Below are positions 30,537 through 54,789 of a stretch of 64,000 bases of DNA, one piece after another (the first letter of the stretch is position 1; every line of letters begins with the position of its first letter). Source of the stretch: Fodinicurvata sp. EGI_FJ10296 (lineage in GTDB: Bacteria > Pseudomonadota > Alphaproteobacteria > DSM-16000 > Inquilinaceae). The notes below the pieces were generated by a model. The model saw only the letters and a list, made by a program, of their open reading frames with translations, was not told where the DNA came from and made no database searches. A program made the position numbers and the translations under genes. The stretch spans positions 248,001-312,000 of the forward strand of contig NZ_JBFCVL010000004.1 of the NCBI RefSeq assembly GCF_040712075.1. The letters are read 5' to 3'.

Positions 30537-31409
30537 GTGACGTCGCGGATTCCAGCCGACCCCGTCCCCCAGCCCCCTTGCCTGCCGGCGCGATGGGACG
30601 CGTTGACGTCGGGGGAGTTCGCGTCGCTTCTCGGCGGGCAGGATGGTCACCGGACGGTCGCCGTTCTCCCGATCGCGGCAACGGAACAGCACGGCCCGCA
30701 TCTGCCGGTGGCCGTAGACGCCGTTATCAATCGCGGCATTCTCGGGCGCGCGATAAGCAGGCTGGATCCCGGCACACCCGTGCTGGTCCTGCCTGAACAA
30801 TCCATCGGCTATTCGCCTGAGCACGACCGGTTCCCCGGCACGCTGACGCTTTCATCGTCCGCCGCGCTTTGCATCTGGACGGAAATCATCGCCTGCGTGG
30901 CCGCCACGGGGATCCGCCGGCTGCTCATCTTCAACAGTCACGGCGGGCAGGTCCCTCTGGCGCGACTGCTGATCCGCGAGGCCAGAGCGCGGAACGGAAT
31001 GCTCGCAACCGCCGTGAGCTGGCCCGATTTCGGTACTCCGCGTGAACTCCTTGATGCCGGCATCATCGACGAGGCCGAGTGCCGGCATGGGCTGCATGCG
31101 GGCCAGGTCGAAACGGCAATGATGATGGCCCTGGCACCCGACAGTGTGCGGATGGACCTGCTAGCGGATTTTCCCTCGCGGGCCCGGGATATGGCCGCGC
31201 GTTACGAATGGCTGGAACCGGAGGGGGCGGCACGTATCGGCTGGCGCGCCGAAGATCTCAACGCCGCCGGGGCGACCGGCAACGCCGCCAAGGCGACCGC
31301 CGCGACCGGTGATATCCTTCTCGATCACGCGGCCACGGCACTTGCCACGCTCTTGTCGGAAATGACCGACCCGGCCCTTACCGACCAGTGGCTGTCGCCC
31401 TTAACCTGA
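30537..31409 (+). CDS. Creatininase-family amidohydrolase
   Basis: A 290-residue metal-dependent amidohydrolase. The family metal and active-site segments are present: PIAATEQHGPHLPVAVDA, SPEHDRFPGTLTLS, the IFNSHGGQVPL loop and HAGQVETAMM. The family covers creatinine amidohydrolase and enzymes acting on formamide pyrimidines and pterins; the substrate is not visible. Translation starts at GTG 30537, just after apt. No other creatine gene is nearby, so a purine- or pyrimidine-related role beside apt is at least as likely as creatinine breakdown. Confidence 0.85.
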   Translation: MTSRIPADPVPQPPCLPARWDALTSGEFASLLGGQDGHRTVAVLPIAATEQHGPHLPVAVDAVINRGILGRAISRLDPGTPVLVLPEQSIGYSPEHDRFPGTLTLSSSAALCIWTEIIACVAATGIRRLLIFNSHGGQVPLARLLIREARARNGMLATAVSWPDFGTPRELLDAGIIDEAECRHGLHAGQVETAMMMALAPDSVRMDLLADFPSRARDMAARYEWLEPEGAARIGWRAEDLNAAGATGNAAKATAATGDILLDHAATALATLLSEMTDPALTDQWLSPLT

Positions 31410-31423
31410 ATCGCCCGCATCGG

Positions 31424-32473
31424 CTAGGCGCTGCGGGACGAAATCGGATAAACACCTGGTTGCAATGTTTTCAGGGTTGATGGAGCGCGATCCGACAACG
31501 CGGTCCTGCCTTGATGACGATCTGTGCCAGCATCGGTATTCTGGATGTTCGCGGCGCCATGATCCGGTCGCGCTGCGGGCGTCGCAGCACCGCCGCCTCC
31601 ATGTGGCGCGTCGTCATCATCGCTTCCCGATATCGGGCTGGATCTGGAATCTGGTTTCGGCCCCTTCCCCGCGTCACCACCCTCGTCGCCACGATGGAGC
31701 ATCGAGGCCCTGGTGGCAGCATAGCGCAGAGTCTGATTCTGATAGCGCCGCCACGCCAGGGGAATGCTCACCAGATAGGCAAGCCCCATGGCGAGCAACA
31801 TCAGCCAGGTTGCCGTGATCATTCCGGCGATCACCAATCCCATACCGACGAGAACGAATACGAGGTATTTCGCCGGTATGAACACCGATTTCAGCGAAAA
31901 TGTCGGCAGCGTGCTGACCATCAGAAGCCCGGCGCCCATGGTCCAGATGCCGATCAGTATCGGGAACTCCTGAAGCGCGATGCCGGTTTCGAGGAAGAAG
32001 AAGATCGGCAGCATTGCCAGTCCGGCACCGGCCGGTGACGGGACACCCGTAAAGTAGCTGGATGCCCAGGGCGGACGGTCTTCGTCGGTGAGCTGCACAT
32101 TGAACCGTGCCAGCCGCATCGCCGCGCAGACGGAAAAGATCAGCACCACGGCCCAACCGAATTGCCCCGCTTCGTGGATCGACCAGAAATAGATCATGAG
32201 CGCCGGAGCGACCCCGAAGCACACGAAATCCGACAGACTGTCGAGTTGCGCGCCCATCGGGCTGGTGGCTTTCAGGAGCCGGGCGACGCGACCGTCCAAC
32301 GTGTCGAGAACAGCGGCGATCAGTATCGCGATCGCGGCCAGTTCGAACCGTCCGTCGATGGCCAGCCGAATGGATGTCATGCCGGCACAGAGTGCGAAGG
32401 TCGTGAGTATATTCGGCAAGAGCCGATTGAACGTGACGTTCCTGGCCCGCCGATGGCGTCTTGGCCGTATCAT
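31424..32473 (-). CDS. pssA: CDP-diacylglycerol--serine O-phosphatidyltransferase
   Basis: Integral membrane enzyme that makes phosphatidylserine. The exact CDP-alcohol phosphatidyltransferase motif is seen from D60-G61 through A64-R65, G74, D78 to D82. About eight membrane helices fill residues 20-250. The start at 32473 has AAGGGA upstream and lies 73 bp after the psd stop. Odd point: the last about 90 residues are a hydrophilic low-complexity tail (SGSDDDD, HGGGGAATPAA) not found in typical PssA; its coding status rests on the open frame only. Confidence 0.93.
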   Translation of the reverse strand: MIRPRRHRRARNVTFNRLLPNILTTFALCAGMTSIRLAIDGRFELAAIAILIAAVLDTLDGRVARLLKATSPMGAQLDSLSDFVCFGVAPALMIYFWSIHEAGQFGWAVVLIFSVCAAMRLARFNVQLTDEDRPPWASSYFTGVPSPAGAGLAMLPIFFFLETGIALQEFPILIGIWTMGAGLLMVSTLPTFSLKSVFIPAKYLVFVLVGMGLVIAGMITATWLMLLAMGLAYLVSIPLAWRRYQNQTLRYAATRASMLHRGDEGGDAGKGPKPDSRSSPISGSDDDDAPHGGGGAATPAARPDHGAANIQNTDAGTDRHQGRTALSDRAPSTLKTLQPGVYPISSRSA

Positions 32474-32546
32474 ATGGTGTCCCTTTCGGCCGATCTCTGC
32501 CCGGCCTGGCGCCTGGTATGGGCCTTTCCCGGGCGGAACCGGCCGC

Positions 32547-33257
32547 TTAGATGCCGTGGCCGATCCGCTGCGGCTCGGCGGTGTCGAGGTCGGCAATAAC
32601 CGTTTCGCCCCCGATCATCGTCTGGCCGACGACCACGAGAGGGGCAACGCCCGGCGGCAGATAAACATCCGTCCGGCTGCCAAATCGGATCAGACCGAAA
32701 CGATGGCCGACCCGGCAGGTGGCGCCGTCGGTCAGGTTGTTGATGATCCGACGCGCTACCAGACCGGCGATCTGGACGACAGCGATTTCTCGGCCATCGG
32801 TCAGCTCGATCACCGCGCCACAGCGTTCGTTTTCCTCGCTGGCCTTGTCCAGGTTGGCACTGAGGAACTTGCCAGGGTGATAGTGAACCCTGGAGACCCG
32901 GCCATCTATCGGTATCCGGTTCACATGTACATTGAAGACGTTGAGAAAGATCGATACCCGCGTCAACGGTTCGTCGCCGAGATCAAGTTCTTTGGGCGGC
33001 AGCGCCTGACCGATCGCCGACACCAGCCCATCGGCCGGCGCGACGACCAGCCCCGGTCGGGTCGGCACGACCCGCACGGGATCGCGGAAAAAATATACGC
33101 ACCACGCTGTTGCCAGAACCCCTAGCCAGCCAAGCGGCTCCCAGAGAAAGAACAGGATCAGGGTGACGGCGGCAAATGCGGCGATAAAGGGGTAGCCCGC
33201 CCGATGGATGGGAGCGATCACGGTTCTGAGGGCGGAAGTGCCCGCGGTGCCAGCCAT
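32547..33257 (-). CDS. psd: Phosphatidylserine decarboxylase proenzyme
   Basis: Makes phosphatidylethanolamine from phosphatidylserine. The 236-residue proenzyme is of the short (archaeal/alphaproteobacterial) type with N-terminal membrane segments. The self-cleavage site is the Gly-Ser in [13 protein letters not shown] near the C-terminus; the serine becomes the pyruvoyl group. Other conserved pieces are [15 protein letters not shown] and [21 protein letters not shown]. It lies directly upstream of pssA, forming the standard psd-pssA pair. Confidence 0.95.
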
Positions 33258-51485: not shown

Positions 51486-52343
51486 TCAGTCAAGCCGGTT
51501 CAGCGGCATGGTCGCGCAGTGAACACCGCCGCCGCCGCGAGTCAGAAGATCGAACGCGGGCGCGAGAACCTCGATCCCCTCGGCCCGCAGCCGATCGTTC
51601 AGCCCGGTCTGATGAGCCGGCGAAATGACCCTGTCATTGCCCAGCGCCAGAATGTTCGCTCCCAGCGCCATGGCGTCGCGATAGCTGACCGGCAGCCGCC
51701 TTATGCCCCGTGCGTCGATCCAGTTCAGAAGATCGGGTTCCAGAACATCTTCGCAGACCAGCGCCAGGCCGTCGGTCACCATGCAGAACAGCAAATCCAG
51801 ATGCAGGAAATGCTCTGCGAACGGATAGAGCCGGACCTCCCAGCCCGCCGCATCTTCAAGCCAGCCCGCGAACTGCCGGGCACCAACCTCGGACGTGCGT
51901 TCTCCGGAATGGCCGATCAGCGCCAGTCCGGGGCGGATAATGTGAATGTCGCCACCCTCCAGACTGCCATGAGTGGCGTATCCCCATATCGGGATACCGG
52001 CGGATTGATAGAATTCCAGGATAGAGGCGTACTCGCCCCGCCGCTGGGGGCGGAACAGCTGCGTAACGACGGCGCCCCAGGGCGTCATCTGTGAACTGTC
52101 ACGGGTATAGACCTGATATGGCAGATGCGGATCAGGGGTCAGATAGTGGCGGCGCACACTGGCGGTATCGAGCGCGGATTCCAGCTCGCGAAATTGAGCG
52201 GCGACCTCTGCCGGCTCCGGCTTTTCGCCGGCGGCCAGCGCGGCCTTCGCGACGACATTGGTCGGGATCCAGTCATAGTGATCCGGCCGGCAGAGCAACA
52301 CATCCGTCAGCACGCCGGTTTCCGACCCAACTCCCCATTGCAT
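51486..52343 (-). CDS. Amidinotransferase-fold hydrolase (dimethylarginine dimethylaminohydrolase-like)
   Basis: A 285-residue guanidino-modifying enzyme. It has the substrate-loop YTRDSSQMTPWGAVV, the Gly-Glu-Gly-type LEGGDIHIIRPGLALIG, EHFLHLDLLFCMV and the catalytic cysteine C276 in GGGGVHCATMPL. The family includes DDAH, arginine deiminase-like and other guanidine hydrolases; dimethylarginine or a related guanidino acid is the likely substrate class. ATG 52343 has AAGGA at 7-base spacing, whereas the open frame extending to 52652 reads through the divergent gene and is rejected. Confidence 0.85.
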   Translation of the reverse strand: MQWGVGSETGVLTDVLLCRPDHYDWIPTNVVAKAALAAGEKPEPAEVAAQFRELESALDTASVRRHYLTPDPHLPYQVYTRDSSQMTPWGAVVTQLFRPQRRGEYASILEFYQSAGIPIWGYATHGSLEGGDIHIIRPGLALIGHSGERTSEVGARQFAGWLEDAAGWEVRLYPFAEHFLHLDLLFCMVTDGLALVCEDVLEPDLLNWIDARGIRRLPVSYRDAMALGANILALGNDRVISPAHQTGLNDRLRAEGIEVLAPAFDLLTRGGGGVHCATMPLNRLD

Positions 52344-52533: not shown

Positions 52534-53337
52534 ATGCAAAGAGACCGCGTCGCCAGAGATCGTTTTATCAGAGACCGTTTTGTCAGAGCGGGCCGGCGCA
52601 AGGTCGGCATTGCGGCCGCAGTCGCCTGCGCGATGACGATCTTCATCGGCACCGTGTGGGCGTTGGGACCGTTGGATTTCGCGCCAACGACCGGTTACGC
52701 ATGGTTACCGGCGGTGATGGTATTTGCGCTGACGCTCGGCCTTATGATGGTTTTTCTCCCGCTTCACCGGGGGGTTGACCGGTTCGGTGCAGCAAACGGC
52801 GTGACACTGGCACGCGGCGTCATCACCGCCTGGCTCGCCGGATTGATCGGAACCCAGTTCGATGTAACGACTGTTGGCTGGTGGGTCACCGGCGCGGCCC
52901 TGCTCGCGCTTTCACTCGACGGCATAGACGGTTACCTCGCCCGGACCCAGAAGACCGCATCACCCTTCGGAGCGCGATTCGATATGGAAATCGACGCGTT
53001 GTTCATCCTGCTGATGTCGTATCTGGTCTTCGAAGCCGGCCGGGCTGGCCCCTGGGTACTCCTGATCGGTTTGATGCGGTACGGCTTCGTCGCCGCCGGA
53101 TGGCTCTGGCCATCGCTGCGCGACGAACTTCCGCCAAGTTTCCGACGCAAGTTGGTTTGCATCATCCAGGGTGGCGCTCTGACGCTGTGCTTCGTGCCAC
53201 TGCTCGGCGACATGGCTTCGACGATCCTGGCCATTCTGGCGCTTGCATCACTGGCGTGGTCGTTCGGCATCGACATTCTGTATCTGAGCCGGCGCCGACT
53301 CGCCACCGGCAGCGACCACAGTGGAGCGACTTCATGA
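52534..53337 (+). CDS. CDP-alcohol phosphatidyltransferase family membrane protein
   Basis: A 267-residue integral membrane enzyme. It carries the complete motif D-G-x2-A-R-x8-G-x3-D-x3-D in DGIDGYLARTQKTASPF followed by GARFDMEID near 130-155, with about eight helices. The N-terminus repeats RDR (QRDRVARDRFIRDRFVRAG) from imperfect 15-bp repeats at 52545-52590. The acceptor alcohol is unknown; this is not the housekeeping PssA or PgsA by context. The stop overlaps the YceI start (ATGA). ATG 52534 is chosen; TTG 52525 is an alternative. Confidence 0.85.
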   Translation: MQRDRVARDRFIRDRFVRAGRRKVGIAAAVACAMTIFIGTVWALGPLDFAPTTGYAWLPAVMVFALTLGLMMVFLPLHRGVDRFGAANGVTLARGVITAWLAGLIGTQFDVTTVGWWVTGAALLALSLDGIDGYLARTQKTASPFGARFDMEIDALFILLMSYLVFEAGRAGPWVLLIGLMRYGFVAAGWLWPSLRDELPPSFRRKLVCIIQGGALTLCFVPLLGDMASTILAILALASLAWSFGIDILYLSRRRLATGSDHSGATS

Positions 53338-54005
53338 TACCTCATTTTTCCGATAGTCAGATAATCGGCCGAACGTTACCCACCATGCGGACTTTCGCCC
53401 TGTTGCTGCTCAGCGTTGCCGCGACCGCGGCGACGGTTGCCATCCCGGCAAGTGGCCCCCGGGCCGAAATGGCCGATTATCGGCTCGACCCCGAGCATAC
53501 GACGGTCGCCTTCATGGTCAGTCATCTCGGCTTCGCCAAGACATTGGGGCAGTTCACCGAGGTCGACGGGACCTTCCGGTTCGATGAAGAGGCCGCAATA
53601 CTCGATGCCATCAACGTGTCAATCGAGGCGTCAAGCGTGACGACCCACCACGAGGCCCGGGACGGGCACCTGCGGAGCGGGGATTTCCTGAACGCCGCCA
53701 ACCATCCGACCATCACCTTCGTCGGGACCGGAAGCGAACAGACCGGCGATACCACCGGCCGCGTGACCGGCGACCTTACACTGCTTGGCGAGACCCGAAC
53801 GGTAACGCTTGATGTGACGTTGAACAAATCGGGTCAGTACCCCTATAGCCCGCCCGACGTCGAAGGTCGGCCCTACCATATCGGCATTTCGGCGAGGGCC
53901 GAGATCGACCGGTCCGACTGGGGCATGACCTATGGTGTCGACAATGGTCTCGTCGGCGATACGGTCGAGATCATCCTGGAGTTCGAGGCACGGCGCAATG
54001 ATTGA
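53334..54005 (+). CDS. YceI-family periplasmic protein
   Basis: A 223-residue exported protein with a lipocalin-like beta-barrel that binds isoprenoids or other lipids in known members. The signal region is MRTFALLLLSVAATAATVAIPAS (residues 18-40), and the domain starts YRLDPEHTTVAFMVSHLGFAK, with SSVTTHHEARDGHLRSGDFLNAANHPTITFV and TLLGETRTVTLDVTLN. ATG 53334 has GGAG at 7-base spacing and overlaps the upstream stop; ATG 53385 would give a more usual signal peptide. The stop overlaps the next gene by 8 bp. Confidence 0.9.
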   Translation: MIPHFSDSQIIGRTLPTMRTFALLLLSVAATAATVAIPASGPRAEMADYRLDPEHTTVAFMVSHLGFAKTLGQFTEVDGTFRFDEEAAILDAINVSIEASSVTTHHEARDGHLRSGDFLNAANHPTITFVGTGSEQTGDTTGRVTGDLTLLGETRTVTLDVTLNKSGQYPYSPPDVEGRPYHIGISARAEIDRSDWGMTYGVDNGLVGDTVEIILEFEARRND

Positions 54006-54789
54006 CCCCGCCGCTGCGGCCGGCGCCGATCCCGCAAAGCTGGATTGGCCGACCTTGCGCGGACTGGCACGCAGTCTGGCGATCTACTATGGCGTTCCCG
54101 GCCGCGGTTTCCGGCTGCGGCGCTTCTATCGGCAGTTTCTCAAACCCGGTGATATCTATTTCGATATCGGTGCGCATGTCGGGCACCGGCTGCGCGCCGC
54201 CCGCTCGACGGGGGCGACCGTGGTCGGTGTCGAACCCCAACCGGCCTGTTTTCGCCTGTTGACGCGGCTATACGGCCGCGATGCCGCCATTACGCTCGTC
54301 CAGGCCGCCATCGGCGCCGAAGTCGGGGAACTGACCCTGCGGATCAGCAGCGCGACCCCGACGGTCACGACAGTCAACGCCGACTGGATGGAAATCGTCA
54401 GCCGCGATCCGGGTTTCGCCGCTGTCGATTGGGACCGGACGGTCACCGTCCCGGCTACGACGCTGGACGCCCTGATTGCCCGTCACGGAACGCCGACTTT
54501 CTGCAAGATCGATGTCGAAGGTCACGAGCCGGCGGTCCTTGCCGGCCTGAGCACGCCGATACCGTATGTCAGTGTCGAGGCGCTGCCCGCCGCACCCGGT
54601 TCAGCGATCGATTGCATGCATCGGCTGTCGGCCCTCGGCGCCTATGATTTCAACCTGATGCGCGGGGAAAGCCCCGAACTCGCATTCGCGGACTGGTGCG
54701 GAGCCGGGAAGATGGCCGAACGCCTGGGCCGCGAGACGCGGTCCGGCGACATCATTGCCCGCCTTAATGGCGTCAGCGCCGAATCCTGA
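53998..54789 (+). CDS. FkbM-family methyltransferase
   Basis: A 263-residue SAM-dependent methyltransferase. The first motif DIYFDIGAHVGHRLRAAR is near 53-70, then VVGVEPQPACFRLL and the family signature TFCKIDVEGHEPAVLAGL near 168-185. It is the third gene of an overlapping trio with a CDP-alcohol phosphatidyltransferase and YceI. The substrate is unknown. It is only distantly similar to the FkbM protein at 45858, so the two are not a recent duplication. The 223 bp after it (54790-55012) hold T-rich sequence and no gene. Confidence 0.82.
   Translation: MIDPAAAAGADPAKLDWPTLRGLARSLAIYYGVPGRGFRLRRFYRQFLKPGDIYFDIGAHVGHRLRAARSTGATVVGVEPQPACFRLLTRLYGRDAAITLVQAAIGAEVGELTLRISSATPTVTTVNADWMEIVSRDPGFAAVDWDRTVTVPATTLDALIARHGTPTFCKIDVEGHEPAVLAGLSTPIPYVSVEALPAAPGSAIDCMHRLSALGAYDFNLMRGESPELAFADWCGAGKMAERLGRETRSGDIIARLNGVSAES

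Follow-up and report, generated by a model that had tools for sequence, protein, structure and literature searches.

A CDP-alcohol phosphatidyltransferase-YceI-FkbM gene trio in Fodinicurvata sp. EGI_FJ10296 and its relation to a conserved set of RibA-, RibD- and PTPS-type genes

Results

Three overlapping genes

We analyzed 64,000 nucleotides of contig NZ_JBFCVL010000004.1 of Fodinicurvata sp. EGI_FJ10296 (hereafter the window; coordinates are positions within it unless a contig is named). Here the genes for a CDP-alcohol phosphatidyltransferase (CDPAT), a YceI-family periplasmic lipid-binding protein, and an FkbM-family S-adenosylmethionine (SAM) methyltransferase follow one another on one strand, with overlaps of 4 bp (CDPAT/YceI) and 8 bp (YceI/FkbM), just as an earlier note on this DNA had described them (Table 1). 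With the alternative YceI start, the N-terminus would be shorter and a gap of 47 bp would separate the gene from CDPAT. It is well supported that CDPAT and FkbM belong to a conserved pathway with a core of RibA-, RibD- and 6-pyruvoyltetrahydropterin synthase (PTPS)-type enzymes; the trio is only part of the unit, and most other genes of the cluster lie elsewhere in the same genome.

The overlaps recur in relatives. At the CDPAT/YceI junction (six loci compared, the window included), a -4 overlap is possible in L063 (with GTG), L125, and L143, and a -1 overlap in L124; in L088 no overlapping YceI start was found at the CDPAT stop. Across 11 CDPAT-FkbM junctions, a 4-bp overlap is possible in nine, the spacing in L033 is -11, and no FkbM start was identified in L076. 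Because the same 4-bp overlap is available in relatives, the overlap at the end of CDPAT goes beyond chance, and the recurring start/stop overlaps argue for translational coupling of the trio genes; together with synteny, they rule out chance neighbours.

CDPAT is distinct from the housekeeping transferases

CDP-alcohol phosphatidyltransferases share the motif spacing D-x2-D-G-x2-A-R-x8-G-x3-D-x3-D, and the corresponding residues of CDPAT (D129, D132, G133, A136, R137, G146, D150, and D154) are invariant in 23 aligned rows. This complete motif and the helical membrane fold of the predicted model (pLDDT 88.4) place CDPAT in the superfamily. Among the fold matches found, a list that does not exclude families absent from it, the best was PgsA (7drj_B: Z = 15.7, root-mean-square deviation 2.8, 167 residues aligned), followed by phosphatidylinositol phosphate (PIP) synthase (5d92: Z = 12.8), and the first row outside the CDP-alcohol transferases had Z = 8.2. 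PgsA and PIP synthase take CDP-diacylglycerol and phosphorylated polyols as substrates. When the CDPAT sequence profile was compared with solved structures, CDP-choline transferases matched best (31-35 bits), PgsA reaching only 14 bits.

The window's genome encodes six PF01066 proteins, among them its own PgsA (L001: 152.2 bits, TIGR00560 cut-off 109.1) and its own PssA (L003, window positions 31424-32596 on the minus strand: 114.7 bits, cut-off 107). The CDPAT of the trio scored 26.9 bits on TIGR00560, and no match to the PssA or Pcs NCBIfam models was listed for it at E up to 0.001. The CDPAT orthologues form one 90-row clade (support 97/96) in a 108-row tree, which was built without a Pcs sequence and is uncertain in its deep order owing to a long-branch warning from the program; the clade spans four phyla and stands apart from L001 and L003. 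Identity with housekeeping PgsA, PssA, or Pcs was thus ruled out by the model scores and, for PgsA and PssA, also by the tree; grouping with PgsA would have told against the proposal of the earlier note, and CDPAT does not group with it.

A conserved gene set around CDPAT

Of 61 genomes searched, 10 have a strong CDPAT orthologue (E < 1e-37), and the window's genome is one of these. A single scan of genomes yielded 130 confirmed relatives, of which 80 loci were kept as an anchored set, drawn from Rhizobiaceae, Rhodobacterales, other Proteobacteria, Actinoplanes and its relatives, Acidobacteria, and Gemmatimonadetes. Cluster profiles, seeded from gene groups and refreshed once, were used to map these loci (Table 1); domain identities come from scanned representatives and from annotated plasmids of Peteryoungia, Thiodictyon, Alloyangia, Streptomyces, and Tateyamaria, which carry largely the same gene set. 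Fifteen of the 80 loci are shorter than 14 kb, and gene absences there are partly due to the short stretches. Neither FkbM nor YceI occurred (0/18) at loci of other CDP-alcohol transferases, of which 18 were examined over about 1.5 kb on each side. In Rhodobacterales, a gene for a sulfatase/lipoteichoic acid (LTA)-synthase-like enzyme immediately adjoins CDPAT.

Actinoplanes and its relatives have a further conserved gene (profile c14, ~293 aa), encoded on the opposite strand a short way downstream of CDPAT (L071, L083, L085, L086, L090, L091, L093, L094, L095, L103, and L108); L098 has a weaker c14 match ~8 kb from CDPAT.

Table 1. Genes of the trio, further genes of the window and its genome, and their frequency near CDPAT
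Feature	Position	Strand	Near CDPAT (anchored loci)	Remarks
CDP-alcohol phosphatidyltransferase (CDPAT)	52534-53337	+		ATG 52534; PF01066 44.2 bits (curated Pfam cut-off 22); motif DGIDGYLARTQKTASPFGARFDMEID intact
YceI-family periplasmic lipid-binding protein	53334-54005	+	9/80	PF04264 154.6 bits (curated Pfam cut-off 23.7); signal-like N-terminus; alternative start ATG 53385
FkbM-family SAM methyltransferase	53998-54789	+	29/80	23/80 directly downstream, without YceI between; PF05050 51.3 bits (curated Pfam cut-off 22.7); TIGR01444 82.5 bits (cut-off 37.7)
Arginine deiminase/dimethylargininase (DDAH)-like	51486-52337	-		Divergent from trio; control gene; sporadic, 15/289 genomes
Creatininase-family amidohydrolase	30537-31409	+	5/80	PF02633 211.4 bits; 367 bits on cluster-derived profile
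Sulfatase-like enzyme	C1:403348-404976		52/80	Position of own-genome orthologue of cluster gene
Family 4 glycosyltransferase (GT4)			68/80	
BchC-like dehydrogenase			65/80	
PTPS homologue			64/80	
SAM methyltransferase			62/80	
Flippase-like protein			59/80	LPG_synthase_TM
RibD C-terminal-type reductase			57/80	
RibA (GTP cyclohydrolase II)			44/80	
Cytochrome b561			28/80	
Endonuclease/exonuclease/phosphatase (EEP)-like phosphatase			7/80	

Co-occurrence across the class

The same 289 genomes of the class served for every count of co-occurrence; for CDPAT, PTPS, and FkbM, scoring took in just the top candidates of each genome, so that absences are soft. CDPAT was present in 20 genomes, the PTPS subfamily in 36, and FkbM in 17. 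The PTPS subfamily accompanies CDPAT in 19 of 20 genomes and FkbM in 16 of 17, the sole exception to both pairings being G142, a genome 74% complete; CDPAT accompanies FkbM in 10 of 17. As a control we used the neighbouring DDAH-like gene, found by a single-protein search where CDPAT, PTPS, and FkbM were found by profile searches. Because the control also co-occurs with PTPS (8/15 genomes), the hypergeometric values of 6e-19 and 1.6e-15 were not taken as probabilities; kinship accounts for part, not all, of the signal.

FkbM and YceI

FkbM keeps the SAM-binding segments FDIGAHVG and KIDVEG in the alignment, and its predicted model (pLDDT 91.6) returned a Foldseek list headed by SAM methyltransferases, at modest TM-scores; with the TIGR01444 score, these place it in the FkbM methyltransferase family.

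A profile of 10 cluster YceI proteins matched E. coli YceI (1y0g, E = 7.7e-41) and also polyisoprenoid-binding structures. The N-terminus of the window's YceI is hydrophobic and, judged by eye in the alignment, ends in a signal-like site, which together with its PF04264 score assigns the protein to the YceI family; on the equivalog model PRK03757 it scored 131.9 bits, below the cut-off of 232. The window shows the order CDPAT-YceI-FkbM on one strand, and so do 2 of the 89 other mapped CDPAT loci, L063 (same family) and L125 (another family). The trio thus recurs in relatives; its absence from all of them would have told against the proposal of the earlier note. CDPAT-YceI without an adjacent FkbM occurs in L088, L124, and L143, and YceI beside a RibD-type gene, with no CDPAT match near, in L132 and L137. 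In L117, the nearest relative in the tree, CDPAT-FkbM occurs with no YceI; the contig there is 6.3 kb long. Since its adjacency to CDPAT and RibD-type genes varies in this way, YceI is a recurring but optional member of the cluster; in four families (f1, f28, f33, and f135) it comes directly after CDPAT, its start overlapping or touching that gene.

YceI or cytochrome b561 is present in 36 of 80 anchored loci and both in one; mutual exclusion of the two was considered, and these numbers are too few to claim it. The cluster-derived b561 profile found no match in the window, the rest of the genome not having been searched for b561.

Pterin-like chemistry of the core

The zinc cysteines of GTP cyclohydrolase II are kept in every cluster RibA row compared. 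Within the LRAYALQ segment, the Tyr shared by the other cluster rows is replaced by Met in a single case, the Streptomyces RibA of L129. In a S. coelicolor enzyme with such a Met change, the reaction reportedly halts at the formyl-pyrimidine, which a creatininase-type deformylase could complete. The creatininase-type gene of the L129 locus matched the ArfB deformylase model weakly (37 bits, cut-off 180); the MftE and creatininase models were stronger, still below their cut-offs.

QueD-type and tetrahydrobiopterin (BH4) PTPS enzymes carry a His-x-His zinc pair, HGH, and the cluster PTPS subfamily has HGA in its place in all 18 rows, among them that of the window's genome. The PTPS homologue of L037 scored 34.1 on the QueD model, vs. 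a cut-off of 89.25. This score, the HGA motif, and a match to the subfamily of SCO6650 rule out the core PTPS as queuosine QueD. Because the RibA cysteines are kept, and given the Met change in L129 with its reported effect and the PTPS subfamily with its HGA, we infer from these sequences that the core product would be a GTP-derived pyrimidine or pterin-like compound.

A dispersed gene set in the window's own genome

On contig C2 of the window's genome (546.3-553.1 kb, locus L115) lie genes for the dehydrogenase, PTPS, GT4, methyltransferase, RibD-type, and RibA enzymes, with PTPS and one RibA gene 5 kb apart. The 20 kb around the sulfatase-like orthologue on contig C1 held no other cluster profile match. 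Two LPG_synthase_TM (PF03706) proteins exceed the family cut-off. In all, the gene set is spread over at least three contigs. A profile map of the window, which besides the trio shows only a creatininase relative, rules out that the whole linked set lies within it. The five creatininases of the cluster scored 393-415 bits on their profile, vs. 367 for the window's protein, which is of the same subfamily and a probable member of the dispersed set.

The creatininase gene adjoins PssA and a Psd-like gene identified by eye (32547-33257, minus strand), which form the housekeeping phosphatidylserine/ethanolamine route. Between the core methyltransferase and the RibD-type gene on C2 (L115:12078-12773) is an ORF with a match, slightly below the cut-off, to a YopT-type cysteine protease domain model (48.5 bits, cut-off 52.95). 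On contig C5 (L116, ~7.5-10 kb), we found a further gene of the GTP-cyclohydrolase-II family and, close by, a RibD-type reductase; the relation to the cluster versions is weak.

CDPAT loci without PTPS

Sixteen anchored loci have no PTPS nearby, a count that excludes L110 (PTPS inside its own locus) and two plasmid-only records (no match). A whole-genome search found PTPS elsewhere in seven and did not find it in nine (L064, L065, L069, L072, L080, L084, L087, L099, and L107; L080 and L099 are metagenome assemblies); it is present somewhere in the genome for 71 of 80. In L064, L065, L069, L084, L087, L128, and L130, CDPAT, sulfatase-like, flippase-like, and GT4 genes stand with an NMT1-type ABC importer that replaces the headgroup genes, the importer family being named from its Tateyamaria plasmid member (NMT1, PF09084, 128 bits). 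The importer binding-protein profile is matched by five assembly loci (the first five of these), and all of them are among the nine PTPS-negative ones. Since the NMT1 family takes in thiamine-pyrimidine binders and these five loci are all PTPS-negative, uptake (salvage) may substitute for headgroup synthesis there. L072 and L107 have another ABC-type set (an ATPase and a putative binding protein, by eye) after CDPAT and the sulfatase-like gene.

Discussion

The pathway that joins CDPAT and FkbM to the RibA/RibD/PTPS core is visible in its gene content, conservation, co-occurrence, and intact motifs. Our interpretation, a tentative one, is that the trio is the membrane-lipid part of this pathway, with headgroup genes on another contig, and that the pathway yields a phospholipid whose headgroup derives from GTP. 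In what we infer of the reactions, their order, the lipid product, and its use, a RibA-type enzyme would open GTP to a diamino-ribosylamino-pyrimidine phosphate, from which the RibD-type reductase, the divergent PTPS homologue, the BchC-like dehydrogenase, the SAM methyltransferase, and GT4 would make a pterin-like glycosylated polyol. CDPAT would then move the phosphatidyl group of CDP-diacylglycerol to a polyol hydroxyl, yielding the phospholipid, and FkbM would O-methylate it; YceI (elsewhere often cytochrome b561) would bind or process the lipid on the periplasmic side, possibly in redox work. The idea in the earlier note that the three proteins make and move a modified lipid is thus still plausible, periplasmic handling included, with the trio as a module of a larger pathway and not a whole unit; its "methylated phospholipid or isoprenoid lipid" was too narrow, because CDPAT usually sits among a larger group of genes for RibA-, RibD-, and PTPS-type chemistry.

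A wider generalization, a widespread class of phospholipids with a GTP-derived headgroup on diacylglycerol, methylated by FkbM and cycled by YceI or b561 as a redox carrier distinct from quinones, with the headgroup precursor imported in some Rhodobacterales, is speculative and rather unlikely. It is likewise unlikely that the product acts as a redox carrier, a suggestion drawn from the likeness to the BcnA-LcoA pair discussed below and from the 36 loci with YceI or b561.

Several observations weigh against the trio being the lipid part of one pathway with the core. The two are unlinked in the window's genome, and both PF03706 proteins of that genome fail to match the cluster flippase-like profile, so that some other protein would have to carry out a flippase-like step there. 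Only 2 of 80 anchored loci have YceI directly after CDPAT. The core occurs without detected CDPAT in 17 of 36 PTPS-positive genomes, and 9 of 80 anchored loci are in genomes in which no PTPS was found; importer-bearing and PTPS-negative loci may equally be read as a lipid module independent of the core. Kinship, as the control gene indicates, inflates the co-occurrence. Finally, the nearest CDP-alcohol transferase is of the CDP-choline type by sequence profile and PgsA by fold.

The main alternative, serious though somewhat unlikely, is that CDPAT, FkbM, and YceI (with flippase- and sulfatase-like genes elsewhere) form a self-contained lipid module that makes a phospholipid with an ordinary polyol headgroup, for instance as the donor of an LTA-synthase-like enzyme, and that the RibA, RibD, and PTPS genes serve a different, soluble compound and lie close by for reasons of regulation or shared function. 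The CDPAT loci without PTPS, the core without CDPAT, and the sulfatase/LTA-synthase-like gene directly beside CDPAT in Rhodobacterales would all fit, whereas the frequency of GT4 (68/80) and RibD-type genes (57/80) near CDPAT, the pairing of CDPAT with PTPS in 19 of 20 genomes of the class, and the confinement of importer loci to genomes without detected PTPS (5/5) speak for a common pathway.

Improbable, in our judgment, is a CDPAT whose product is a soluble phosphodiester (the case for some CDP-inositol-type transferases) and part of a pterin-like cofactor, not a lipid, with YceI handling a separate isoprenoid ligand. Some CDP-alcohol transferases do use soluble partners, and CDP-choline transferases head the sequence-profile matches among solved structures; yet the enzymes with the nearest folds, PgsA and PIP synthase, use CDP-diacylglycerol, and flippase-like, sulfatase-like, and YceI or b561 genes are frequent in the cluster.

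BcnA is a lipocalin that we take to be of the YceI family. PMC9113575 presents BcnA and LcoA, a cytochrome b561, as a linked pair for detoxification of lipid peroxyls, with bcnA genes unlinked in some genera. The window's YceI could accordingly be a BcnA-like lipocalin against lipid peroxidation, in the operon for co-expression only and unrelated to CDPAT and FkbM, and the presence of YceI or b561 in 36 of 80 loci, with both in one, would suit such a role. We hold this to be just as improbable as the soluble product, since the window has no match to the cluster-derived b561 profile and, in four families, YceI lies right behind CDPAT and its start overlaps or touches it. That CDPAT is an ordinary PgsA, PssA, or Pcs among chance neighbours is hardly credible: its motif is generic to the superfamily and PgsA its nearest fold, but the model scores, the genome's own PgsA and PssA, and the separate clade all disfavour it.

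CDP-alcohol transferases define membrane headgroups, of which the known set is small. A distinct clade in four phyla, tied to pterin-like chemistry that starts from GTP and to YceI or b561, suggests a membrane lipid or cofactor of which we found no description (at the level of titles and abstract openings of open-licence papers, hence a weak negative). From the conserved gene set one can read which genes go together, and a knockout-and-lipidomics approach becomes feasible.

Comparison with known systems

CDPAT shares motif and fold with PgsA and PIP synthase and differs from them in falling below the NCBIfam equivalog cut-offs, in its own clade, and in its gene context. FkbM resembles the FkbM-family O-methyltransferases in PF05050, TIGR01444, and the SAM-methyltransferase fold, whereas for its subfamily a sequence search at E up to 0.01 found no solved structure. 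The trio recalls BcnA-LcoA in its lipocalin of presumably the same kind and in the b561 genes of the wider cluster in other species; it differs in that YceI is coupled to CDPAT and FkbM, with no b561 match in the window. As in riboflavin synthesis by RibA and RibD, GTP cyclohydrolase II and RibD C-terminal reductase domains occur in the cluster, but here they lie beside PTPS, GT4, and CDPAT, and the one reductase scanned (L037) matches the C-terminal reductase part only. The closest counterpart of the cluster PTPS is S. coelicolor SCO6650 (3d7j), of the same subfamily (214 bits, E = 5.5e-63; next best 35 bits) and deposited as an uncharacterised protein.

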